Below, piece by piece: positions 2,213 to 55,322 of a stretch of DNA of 64,000 nt; positions within the stretch are counted from its first letter, which is position 1; every line of letters begins with the position of its first letter. Source of the stretch: Clostridia bacterium (GTDB lineage: Bacteria; Bacillota; Clostridia; UMGS1840); the NCBI GenBank assembly GCA_017936745.1, contig JAGBEY010000015.1, forward strand, positions 1 through 64,000, in the 5' to 3' direction. A program made the translations under genes and the position numbers. The notes below the pieces were generated by a model. The model was not told the DNA's origin. It worked only from the letters and a program-made list of their open reading frames with translations, and ran no database searches.

Positions 2213-3673
2213 ATGTATCAGGTAACGGTAAACAACAAAATCTCTCTTTCCTATACAGAGGAGCTTTGTCTATCGGAAATACTGTCCCGATGCGGATTGC
2301 TGATTTCCGTTCCCTGCGGTGGGCAAGGCGTATGCGGAAAATGCAAGGTAATCGCACAGGGAAGTCTCTCCCCTCTTACCGAAACAGAACGAAACCATCT
2401 GACGCAGCAAGAAATCGCTCAAGGCTTCCGTCTTGCTTGTGTTGCCAGAGCTACAGGCGATGTCTCCATTACCGCAGAAGAAATCCCTCAGGTTGTTGAA
2501 ATTGATTTTTCGATGGAACACTGCAATATTAGCCACGATTTTACCGACGGATTGGTAATTGATATCGGCACAACCACCATCGCAGCAGTGCTGTATCGGA
2601 ATAAAAAGCCGAGTAAAATAATAACCGAGGTCAACTATCAAACCAGCTACGGTGCAGACGTTATCACAAGAATTGCTGCTGAAAGAGACCATTCCGGTGT
2701 ACTATATTCCCTTTTACAGCATCAGATAGAGAATATGATTGCTGCTTGTAATTATCCGAAAAACACAGTGATTGTAGCAAATACCGTGATGCTTCATTTT
2801 CTGACCGGGCAAAACGTGCTTCCCTTGGGAGAAGCCCCCTATCAAACTGCAGACTTATTTGGAAAGACTTATCCGCTGTTCGGCACAACGTGCTATCTCG
2901 CTCCTTGTATTTCTGCATTTGTCGGAGGAGACATTACTGCAGGCATCCTCGCCTCCCGTATGACAGAAAAAGAGGAAAGCGCAATGCTGGTGGATTTAGG
3001 AACAAACGGTGAAATTGCTTACTATAATAAAAACAAGCTGTTCACCGCCTCCACTGCGGCAGGGCCGGCATTTGAGGGAGCAGGAATCTTTATGGGAATG
3101 CCCGCAAAGGCAGGGGCAATCAACTCCGTTTCTCTTACAAACGGCACCATCACCTACACCACAGTGGGCAACACCAAGCCAAAAGGTATTTGCGGCAGCG
3201 GTATTATTGATGCCCTTGCTGTTATGAAACAGACGGGAATTTTGGAGGAAAGCGGTGCTTTCTTAGAGGAGCATCCTCTTTGTTCTTTAGATTTTCACGG
3301 TCGTCCCTGTTTTCGGATTCCGGGAACAGAGGTGATTCTCACACGGGAGGATATCCGTGCATTACAGCTGGCAAAGGGAGCAATTCATGCCGGAATGTTA
3401 ACCTTGGCAAAACAGGTAGATACCTTGTATCTTTCCGGTGGTTTCGGCTCAAAAATCAAAATAGAAAATGCAGAATATATCGGATTATTGCCGAAACATT
3501 TTGCAAAGACCACGGTTGCCTTGGGAAACACCGCACTCTGCGGCGGTGTGCTGGCACTGTTTTCCAAAGAGGAACGACGGAAATTATCGGAAATTGCTGC
3601 TATGAGCCAATCAGTGTTATTTCACCAAAATCCCGATTTTACCGACCGATATATAGAAGCGATGTTATTTTAA
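2213..3673 (+). CDS. [2Fe-2S] ferredoxin-ASKHA protein (DUF4445, corrinoid-protein reductive activase type)
   Basis: A 486-residue protein. Residues 1-85 are a plant-type [2Fe-2S] ferredoxin domain with Cys35, Cys41, Cys44 (PCGGQGVCGKC) and Cys76. From about residue 115 there is an ASKHA ATPase fold: VIDIGTTTIAA (phosphate 1) and VDLGTNGEIA. Known members reactivate corrinoid proteins by ATP-driven reduction of Co(II). Here no methyltransferase or corrinoid protein is nearby, so the client is unknown. The start ATG follows AAGGCGGTGATAAC. It is monocistronic, with its own promoter and a bidirectional terminator. Confidence 0.85.
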   Translation: MYQVTVNNKISLSYTEELCLSEILSRCGLLISVPCGGQGVCGKCKVIAQGSLSPLTETERNHLTQQEIAQGFRLACVARATGDVSITAEEIPQVVEIDFSMEHCNISHDFTDGLVIDIGTTTIAAVLYRNKKPSKIITEVNYQTSYGADVITRIAAERDHSGVLYSLLQHQIENMIAACNYPKNTVIVANTVMLHFLTGQNVLPLGEAPYQTADLFGKTYPLFGTTCYLAPCISAFVGGDITAGILASRMTEKEESAMLVDLGTNGEIAYYNKNKLFTASTAAGPAFEGAGIFMGMPAKAGAINSVSLTNGTITYTTVGNTKPKGICGSGIIDALAVMKQTGILEESGAFLEEHPLCSLDFHGRPCFRIPGTEVILTREDIRALQLAKGAIHAGMLTLAKQVDTLYLSGGFGSKIKIENAEYIGLLPKHFAKTTVALGNTALCGGVLALFSKEERRKLSEIAAMSQSVLFHQNPDFTDRYIEAMLF

Positions 3674-31691: not shown

Positions 31692-31904
31692 ATGAAACAT
31701 CCGCAAAAAATCAACATCACTCCCCGCGACCGATTACTTCGTGCCTGGGAAAACTCTATGGAGCTGGTACGTGACTTTGAATGTTATGCAGCCGAAATTG
31801 AAAACAATCCCAAGCTTTGTGAAACCTTTTCTGAATTTGCAAAAGATGAAGGATTTCATGCGGCACGATTCCGGGAGCTGCTTCTGGAAATGGAAAAACA
31901 ATAA
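31692..31904 (+). CDS. Small ferritin-like helical protein (70 aa), unknown function
   Basis: It starts 4 nt after the alcohol dehydrogenase stop; its GGAGG site overlaps the end of that gene, so translation is coupled. The product is all-helical, with two amphipathic segments: RLLRAWENSMELVRDFECYA and FAKDEGFHAARFRELLLEME. The E-x-x-H pattern in KDEGFHAARF resembles half of a ferritin/rubrerythrin four-helix bundle, so a dimer could form a metal site. No family is recognised. Whether it helps the zinc dehydrogenase is speculation. Confidence 0.6.
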   Translation: MKHPQKINITPRDRLLRAWENSMELVRDFECYAAEIENNPKLCETFSEFAKDEGFHAARFRELLLEMEKQ

Positions 31905-31940
31905 AAAGCTCCGTTTTATGTGAAAAGTATATGAACTTTC

Positions 31941-31969
31941 TTGACATTTTTTTCCTTTCGTGACATAAT
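31941..31969 (+). promoter_or_regulatory. SigA promoter of the uronate isomerase-like gene
   Basis: TTGACA (31941-31946), 17 bp, CATAAT (31964-31969). Confidence 0.82.
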
Positions 31970-32015
31970 ATCTACAAGAAATTCAATTCACATAAGAAAG
32001 GGGAAATCTTCCAAA

Positions 32016-33326
32016 ATGAAACCTTTTTTTGAGCACGATTGCTTGCTCTCCACGCCAACAGCAAAAAGTCTGTTTCAAGAGGTTGTCAATCTCCCGGTTA
32101 CAGATGCCTTTACCAAGCTTACCGCAAAAGAAATTGCAGAAAACTCTCAATTCGAAAATATTACAGAGCTGCTCATTGACCGAGACCCGAAAAAGCTTGA
32201 GGCAATGCGGTTTTTCGGAATAGACGAATATTATATCACAGGAGAGGCAGGTGCTTTTGAACGCTTCCAGAAATGGTCAGAAACCTTACCTTGCCTCATT
32301 GGAAATCCGCTCTATTACCGCTCTCATTTTGAATTACAGAAATTCTTTTCCGTTCAAGAGCCTTTATCTCCTGCCACAGCAGAGAAAATCTGGACGGCTG
32401 CCAATCAAAAAATACAAACGGAAAAGCTTTCCATCTGGAATTTATTCAAGCAGTTTGGAGTAACTGCGTTGCACACACCCCAGGACCCGACTGCTTCTCT
32501 CGTGTGGCATCAGAAGATAGCAGAGGATGGGTTATGCCCCGCAAAGGTATATCCCTCCTTCTGTGCAGACAAGGCGCTGTCACCCACCTCATCCACCTTC
32601 AAAAAATGGGTGGAAGCACTGGCTGAAAGCTGTTCCGCCTCTATCGCTACGTTGGCAGATTTACAAGCTCGTTTAGTGGAACGATTGCTCTTTTTCAAGT
32701 CCTTAGGAGCAAAATCCGCAATTCAGATGATATCACTCTCAAAATTACCCGAATGCTCCTACGAAACGGCAGATGCCGCATTTCAAAAAGCAAAAAATCA
32801 GTTACCTCTTACTCAGTCGGAGCTTTCAGAATATCAGGGAGTTATGCTTCAGTTCTTAGCAAAAAAATATCAGGATTACGGCTTTACAATGGCAATTCAA
32901 ACCACCACAGAAGCTGCCTCCCATACAGTAATCACATTGCTGGAGCAGCTGAGCCGGGAACATAAACTTCCCAAAATTTTACTTGCAACAACCGAGCCGT
33001 CACACTATCCGTCATTGGCAAAAGCAGCAGTTTCTTCAAAAATTTCCGGTTCACTCCGGCTGTTTTTTAAGGGAATGCCGTATCAGAAAGACGATTTGCA
33101 GTTTATTTTGAAAGCCGTTTCCAAAAACGGAATTCTTCCCTGTTTTGCAGGAATTTGTGCCGGTGGAAACAGCCTATTGTCTTATCCGTTTTACGAATAT
33201 TTCCGACAAAATCTTTGCGATTTCCTTGGCAATTTGGTGGAATCGGGAGAATATCCCAACTATGCAGATTTACTGAAAAAATTTGTAAAGGATATCACAT
33301 TTGAAACACTCAATTCCTACCTGTAA
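32016..33326 (+). CDS. Uronate isomerase (UxaC) homologue lacking the active site
   Basis: 436 residues that follow UxaC from end to end: MKPFFEHDCLLSTPTAKSL, FENITELLIDRDPKKLEAMR, IGNPLYYRSHFELQ, LSPATAEKIWTAAN, LADLQARLVERL, LSYPFYEYFRQNLCDFLG. Yet the catalytic residues are gone. The family FDYHCHL is TDAFTKL (residues 29-35), so both Zn histidines are Phe and Lys. PSWRPDKA is PSFCADKA, VSDHA is SAIQM, and the late DSRSF is AGGNSL. An isomerase reaction is very unlikely. The start ATG 32016 follows AAAGGGG; the frame to 31941 begins inside the promoter. Confidence 0.85.
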   Translation: MKPFFEHDCLLSTPTAKSLFQEVVNLPVTDAFTKLTAKEIAENSQFENITELLIDRDPKKLEAMRFFGIDEYYITGEAGAFERFQKWSETLPCLIGNPLYYRSHFELQKFFSVQEPLSPATAEKIWTAANQKIQTEKLSIWNLFKQFGVTALHTPQDPTASLVWHQKIAEDGLCPAKVYPSFCADKALSPTSSTFKKWVEALAESCSASIATLADLQARLVERLLFFKSLGAKSAIQMISLSKLPECSYETADAAFQKAKNQLPLTQSELSEYQGVMLQFLAKKYQDYGFTMAIQTTTEAASHTVITLLEQLSREHKLPKILLATTEPSHYPSLAKAAVSSKISGSLRLFFKGMPYQKDDLQFILKAVSKNGILPCFAGICAGGNSLLSYPFYEYFRQNLCDFLGNLVESGEYPNYADLLKKFVKDITFETLNSYL

Positions 33327-33360
33327 AAAAAACAGACTCGCTCAGGCGAGTCTGTTTTTT
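33324..33360. terminator. Bidirectional terminator between the UxaC-like gene and the helicase
   Basis: The stem aaaaaacagactcgc/gcgagtctgtttttt (15 bp) has a 4-nt loop. Confidence 0.9.
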
Positions 33361-54044: not shown

Positions 54045-55322
54045 ATGTTATTTGAAGATATCACCATTTTAGATGAAAATTTAGAGGTAAAAGAACATCA
54101 GTATGTGCTGACCGAAAACGAACGGATTACATATGTTGGAGGCACCTGTCCTGATGCAGAGGGACACCAACGATACAATGGGAAAAACAAGCTTCTGATG
54201 ACCGCTTTTACCAATCTTCACAGTCATACTCCCATGACACTGATGCGGGGTTACGGAGAAAACCTCTCTCTAAACGACTGGCTTACCAAAAAAATCTTCC
54301 CCTATGAGGACAAGCTGACAAGTGAGGATGTGTATTACGGTACCTTATTGGGCATTGCAGAAATGCTTCGTTTCGGTATTGTATCCACCTCAGATATGTA
54401 TTATTTCTGCGAGGATATGTTAAAAGCATTCTTAGAAACCGGTGCAAAATGTAACTTAAGCCGTGGCATCACCTGCTTTTCCGATGCTTCTTATCACGAG
54501 CTTCCGGCTTATGAGGAAAACAAGCTGTTAATTCGTGATTATCACAATATAAATAACGGACAAATCAAAATTGATATGTCAATTCACGGAGAATACACCA
54601 ATACGGAACGAACCATCCGTGAAATCTCTGAACACGCTAAATCGGAGGGACTCCCGTTACACATCCACGTTTCGGAAACCGAAAGCGAGCATAAAGAATG
54701 CATGGCTCGTCACAACGGTATGACACCAATCCAGTATTTCAACCACTTAGGGGTGCTGGATTCCAAAGTATTGGCGGCACACTGTGTGCATCTTTCCGGA
54801 GACGACTTTTCCATTATGAAAGAACGGAGCGTATCCGTAGCAAGCTGCCCTGCCTCTAATCTCAAACTGGCAAGCGGAATCTGCGATGTAAAAAGGTTAA
54901 TGGACTTCGGCATCAACGTGGGCATCGGCACCGACAGCGTAGCAAGCAATAACAGCCTCAATATGATAGAAGAAATTAAGCTGTTTGCCCTTTTACAAAA
55001 GGTTCGCCAGAACGATCCGGCAGTGATTACCCCGAGAGATGCCCTTTACGCCGCTACTAAAGCAGGTGCTATCGCACAGGGCAGACCCGACTGCGGTGCT
55101 CTGAAGATTGGAAACCGTGCAGATTTGATTGTTCTGGATTTGTCGAATCCTTATTGGATTCCGGTGCATAATCTCACCAACAATTTAGTATACTCCGCCT
55201 CCGGTACCGACGTATGCCTTACCATGGCAGACGGCAAGATTCTGTACCGTGACGGTGAATACACCACGATTGATATAGAAAAGCTCCGCTATGTGCAGAC
55301 CCTTTCTCAAAAAGAATTGTAA
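54045..55322 (+). CDS. Amidohydrolase of the MTA/SAH deaminase (TRZ/ATZ) family
   Basis: A 425-residue metal-dependent deaminase. Zn ligands are in TNLHSHTPMTLMRGYG (HxH), IHVSETESEHKE, LAAHCVHLSG and GTDSVASNNSLNM. The LNDWLTKKIFPYEDKL segment is typical of the 5'-methylthioadenosine / S-adenosylhomocysteine deaminase group, close also to guanine and chlorohydrolase enzymes. It would serve purine and methionine-cycle salvage. The ribosome site is AAGGAG. It is 15 nt after the IMPACT gene. Confidence 0.9.
   Translation: MLFEDITILDENLEVKEHQYVLTENERITYVGGTCPDAEGHQRYNGKNKLLMTAFTNLHSHTPMTLMRGYGENLSLNDWLTKKIFPYEDKLTSEDVYYGTLLGIAEMLRFGIVSTSDMYYFCEDMLKAFLETGAKCNLSRGITCFSDASYHELPAYEENKLLIRDYHNINNGQIKIDMSIHGEYTNTERTIREISEHAKSEGLPLHIHVSETESEHKECMARHNGMTPIQYFNHLGVLDSKVLAAHCVHLSGDDFSIMKERSVSVASCPASNLKLASGICDVKRLMDFGINVGIGTDSVASNNSLNMIEEIKLFALLQKVRQNDPAVITPRDALYAATKAGAIAQGRPDCGALKIGNRADLIVLDLSNPYWIPVHNLTNNLVYSASGTDVCLTMADGKILYRDGEYTTIDIEKLRYVQTLSQKEL

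Follow-up and report, generated by a model that had tools for sequence, protein, structure and literature searches.

The window, the whole 64,000-nucleotide stretch of DNA analyzed here, carries at 32016-33326 on the plus strand an open reading frame of 436 codons, with an ATG start preceded by AAAGGGG, a ribosome binding site read directly from the sequence (31997-32003, plus strand). The 436-residue product, designated pseudo-UxaC, follows the uronate isomerase fold over its full length and lacks the active site. Homology to UxaC over the whole length, proposed in an earlier note on this DNA, is confirmed by a match to Pfam model PF02614 (E-value 5.3e-94; 316 bits against a cutoff of 25), covering residues 1-294 and the C-terminal part, and by matches to the solved UxaC structures 3iac (2.1e-53) and 1j5s (2.8e-34). 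The NCBIfam equivalog model for glucuronate isomerase, with a cutoff of 387 bits, gives the window protein only 284; the other two members of the clade described below score 298 and 324, also under the cutoff, while two canonical relatives used as controls score 579 and 691. Judged by its sequence, the window protein belongs to the UxaC family by descent, yet it shows none of the tested functional hallmarks of a uronate isomerase.

The gene lies third in a series consisting of a zinc alcohol dehydrogenase, a 70-residue half-rubrerythrin (ferritin-like) protein encoded 3 bp downstream of the dehydrogenase (31692-31904, plus strand), pseudo-UxaC itself, and a convergent DEAD-box helicase. An intact promoter of the sigma-70 type, TTGACA-17-CATAAT with an extended -10 element, occupies 31941-31969 (plus strand) and is conserved in the orthologs from two related genomes, G002 and G004. 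Immediately 5' of the promoter is a conserved box, TTTTATGTGAAAAGTATATGAACTTT (31914-31939, plus strand); no other good copy of it occurs in the genomes, and no regulon can be read through it. The gene ends in an intrinsic terminator at 33332-33360 (plus strand), with a perfect 10-bp stem, ACAGACTCGC/GCGAGTCTGT, a TCAG loop and a run of T, which abuts the helicase gene. This terminator was read straight from the sequence and did not appear in the computed scan. The open frame, the conserved promoter and the hairpin with its T-run thus bear out the description of a gene with signals of its own. Among the three upstream regions compared, each of 100 bp, that of pseudo-UxaC is 71-80% identical, versus 46-59% for the alcohol dehydrogenase and 62-67% for the helicase. 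Inverted arms TTATGTGAA/TTCACATAA, 62 nt apart, flank the promoter (31916-31995) and have the same spacing in G002; they are not claimed as an operator, as 7% of shuffled sequences yield an equally good repeat.

Two other genes of the window are recorded in passing. An ordinary enzyme of the Amidohydro_1 family, which belongs to another branch of the amidohydrolase superfamily, is encoded at 54045-55319 (plus strand). The product of 2213-3670 (plus strand) resembles RACo, a corrinoid reductive activator, in its middle and C-terminal domains, but Pfam matched no ferredoxin domain at its N terminus.

Active site residues and predicted fold

The window protein was aligned with 34 canonical relatives. 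All replacements quoted in the earlier note are present, as VTDAFTKL, PSFCADKA, KSAIQM and CAGGNSLLSY, and the alignment adds the Tyr of DHYKW, the strand-end His of MQLH, both Trp of WWF, and a deletion of 23 residues that removes the active-site loop G-x-x-RNNN...GxDxGFDSI. On the plus strand, the altered sites run as follows. The beta-1 motif DAFTKL (residues 30-35, 32103-32120) replaces DYHCHL, so that both His of HCH are gone, the second having become Lys34 in all three species of the clade. DPKKLE (residues 57-62, 32184-32201) replaces DHYKWR, with the loss of His and Tyr, the Tyr being absent from all three species. Cys183 (32562-32564) stands for the invariant Arg of RPDK, and AIQ (residues 235-237, 32718-32726) for SDH, whose Asp and His are both replaced. 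Gln295 takes the place of the strand-end His and is followed by the junction of the loop deletion, common to the three species (32898-32904). KGMPY (residues 352-356, 33069-33083) replaces WWFND, with Tyr356 fixed in all three species, and AGGNSL (residues 382-387, 33159-33176) replaces TDSRSF, removing Asp and Arg.

The canonical residues listed here are near-invariant among the 34 relatives. Both His of HxH and the late Asp are kept in 34 of 34, where the window protein has AFTK and GGN, and the metal site that marks a functional uronate isomerase (EC 5.3.1.12) is therefore missing. The Tyr of DHYKW, the Arg of RPDK, SDH, the strand-end His and the RNNN...GxD loop are lost from every species of the clade, with the single exception of the SDH His in G002. 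The assignment of individual lost residues as metal ligands or catalysts follows the characterized uronate isomerases. Because the deleted 23-residue segment comes after a strand with an active-site residue at its end, the geometry of TIM barrels places this segment on the active-site face.

Predicted structures agree with retention of the barrel. AlphaFold predicts the window protein and its G004 ortholog with pLDDT of 90.8 and 91.4, respectively, and the former model superimposes on UxaC structure 3iac with a TM-score of 0.92. The alignments behind both models contained canonical homologs, which favors the canonical fold, so these models indicate compatibility rather than proof. The earlier note had looked for a structural model with an occupied but altered pocket; what the predictions bear out of this is the confident full barrel. 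Catalytic motifs lost while the fold, as predicted, is kept are a hallmark of pseudoenzymes.

Of 98 alignable positions conserved in at least 97% of the canonical relatives, 30 are lost in all three clade members. At six of these the three species share a new residue: Lys34, Pro155, Ile321, Tyr331, Arg348 and Tyr356. Such residues might suggest that the old barrel houses a new enzyme, with metal-free chemistry that relies on Lys34 (where beta-1 ends), Arg348, Tyr331, Tyr356 and Pro155. A related proposal is an orphan enzyme rebuilt after the loss of uronate catabolism, with a new site formed by Lys34, Arg348, Tyr331 and Tyr356, with regulation of its own, and with a metal-free activity of the amidohydrolase fold or a role as a sensor. 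We regard the rebuilt orphan as rather unlikely, and a new enzyme on the former set of residues as unlikely. Identity in three of three species at positions so strongly conserved in canonical proteins speaks for new chemistry, as do the position of Lys34, at the site of the second metal-binding His, and the confidently predicted barrel. However, six of 30 is a lower rate than the invariance across the clade as a whole (161 of 431 columns, about 37%), two of the six, Pro155 and Ile321, are apolar, the three species differ from one another at most positions of the pocket, and the loop over the site is deleted. That so few of the lost positions share a new residue makes a new, conserved catalytic center in the old pocket less likely, although the six that do lend a new pocket some weight.

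Orthologs and selection

The gene was found in three of five genomes of the genus, namely that of the window, G002 (53% identity) and G004 (49% identity), and the order of the four genes at the locus is the same in all three. In G002, in L075 (5448-9791, minus strand), an open reading frame of 1447 residues lies between the helicase gene and mraZ, where the genome of the window has a short gap with a tRNA. Both orthologs share the 23-residue deletion and the Lys for the second His. The first His is retained in G004 (DCHSKL) and the SDH His in G002; erosion has therefore gone furthest in the lineage of the window. The counter-argument that close homologs keep the histidines, raised in the earlier note, is thus correct for the first His in G004 but is refuted by the shared deletion and the shared change of the second His to Lys, and two syntenic orthologs with the same deletion rule out a unique decayed copy.

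The trio is monophyletic with support of 100/100, and its long stem measures 1.34 substitutions per site. Searches with a profile of the trio, whose members score 825-845 bits, returned nothing else above 353 bits in a non-exhaustive set of 391 genomes of the class and 398 of the phylum. A scan of genome contigs for additional members yielded canonical UxaC and nothing else, the majority from Lachnospiraceae, and a scan of viral contigs gave no match. Loss of the active site would be a single event in the common ancestor of the trio.

The other two genomes of the genus, G001 and G003, have both the alcohol dehydrogenase and the helicase, while pseudo-UxaC and the 70-residue protein were undetected genome-wide (G003 is 77% complete). 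Pseudo-UxaC, not found in these two of five genomes, is therefore dispensable at the level of the genus. The half-rubrerythrin occurs in the same three genomes only, with four relatives from the order also negative; a shared insertion or loss explains this co-occurrence as well as a functional link does.

A codon model on a star tree estimates omega for the trio at 0.133, with 2ΔlnL of 224.5 against omega fixed at 1; this omega is approximate, with three sequences and saturated dS. Under the same model, omega is 0.081 for the helicase and 0.021 for the alcohol dehydrogenase. Pairwise dN/dS by NG86 within the trio is 0.17-0.19, and differences at codon positions 1, 2 and 3 amount to 0.36, 0.26 and 0.55, a contrast that can be read directly despite the saturation. 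No internal stop occurs in the trio, while neutral simulation at 0.4 changes per site produces at least six. The three branches measured post-date the shared deletion, provided that the deletion happened once. These values, together with the conserved promoter, sustain the earlier view that the gene is unlikely to be dying; they are far from the dN/dS near 1 that the earlier note named as a refutation, and the clade shows the common replacements under purifying selection that had been anticipated. Purifying selection after site loss, seen here in only three sequences with saturated dS, is a further hallmark of pseudoenzymes.

Pseudo-UxaC nevertheless evolves much faster than its neighbors (53% identity, versus 96% for the alcohol dehydrogenase and 85% for the helicase). 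This rate, an omega above those of both neighbors, two species of the genus in which the gene was undetected, and the apparent absence of the pathway, discussed below, would all fit a relic of uronate catabolism that is slowly decaying in a small-genome lineage where selection has relaxed. Such a relic is improbable, as omega stays well under 1 along the branches after the shared deletion, three lineages with saturated synonymous sites have accumulated no stops, structural residues are kept, and the upstream region is better conserved than those of the two neighbors. The best-kept regions of the protein include residues 1-20, 61-80 and 401-420, and the pocket positions mostly drift.

Uronate pathway and interpretation

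The isomerase pathway requires the downstream enzymes UxuA and KDPG aldolase (PMC6353982). Neither was detected in any of the five genomes of the genus, three of which are at least 95% complete, that of the window being 92% complete. Both are present in four of four relatives from the order, although the UxuA match in G008 is a fragment only. With these required enzymes undetected, the hosts are probably unable to grow on uronates by the isomerase pathway. Altronate dehydratase is uninformative for the genus, since most of the order relatives lack it as well. Among those relatives, the trio profile detected UxaC in G007 only. On these gene contents the genus appears to have no uronate pathway, and we infer that the pathway was lost, as against never having been present. 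The earlier note had expected a separate intact uxaC; none was found, as PF02614 has no second match in the genome of the window, in G002 or in G004, and pseudo-UxaC is the only UxaC detected in its genome. The lack of an intact UxaC, of UxuA and of KDPG aldolase counts against a role as helper to an active paralog in the same cell, and a sole UxaC in a genome without the two downstream enzymes argues for refunctionalization after pathway loss.

That the protein is still a uronate isomerase, working through residues that have migrated, would accord with the overall fold and the many peripheral motifs retained, but is very improbable from the sequence: none of the metal ligands, the Tyr, the Arg, WW or the loop survives, and the search of the genomes for downstream enzymes detected none. 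The genomes are multi-contig drafts, but an assembly or sequencing artifact is excluded for practical purposes by the same gene, deletion, neighbors and promoter in three separately assembled genomes, at protein identities of 49-53%.

The probable explanation, in our judgment, is a uronate isomerase homolog that has been refunctionalized as a non-catalytic pseudoenzyme, its TIM barrel now serving as a scaffold, regulator or ligand binder. Once the hosts no longer used uronates by the isomerase pathway, the protein would have been freed from catalysis. A folded, probably oligomeric barrel would have been kept for a non-catalytic role, and the old pocket would no longer perform metal-dependent isomerization. 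The role may be to bind another protein or a small molecule, making the protein a scaffold, a regulator or a sensor. Its helical surface is a likelier working part than the pocket, because the three segments named above are among the best kept while the pocket drifts; a kept N-terminal region, a kept segment 61-80 and kept C-terminal helices, with a drifting pocket, favor a role for the folded surface over a new catalytic center. Counting against refunctionalization are the size of the clade, three sequences, its fast evolution and the two genomes of the genus in which the gene was not detected.

Pseudo-UxaC resembles UxaC (PF02614, amidohydrolase superfamily; PDB 3iac, 1j5s and 2q01) in its full-length homology and in the same predicted barrel with a helical insertion (TM-score 0.87-0.92), and differs from it in the replaced metal and substrate residues, the deleted loop and the score below the isomerase equivalog cutoff. 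Like pseudoenzymes generally, reviewed in PMC10211241, it keeps a fold without the conserved catalytic motifs and is retained by selection. Unlike them, it is the sole member of its family detected in the genome, and its pathway appears to be missing; it is therefore unable to regulate an active paralog in the same cell. A sole copy with neither an active paralog nor a pathway is unusual for a pseudoenzyme, and no description of a pseudo-UxaC was found in the open-access literature searched. The Pfam match, taken alone, is an annotation trap, reading as an active glucuronate isomerase and crediting the organism with a use of uronates that it probably lacks. In these bacteria a single-copy catabolic enzyme appears to have survived the loss of its pathway, remaining under selection with its active site gone, and it offers a clean natural case in which to ask how a metabolic barrel can be reused.
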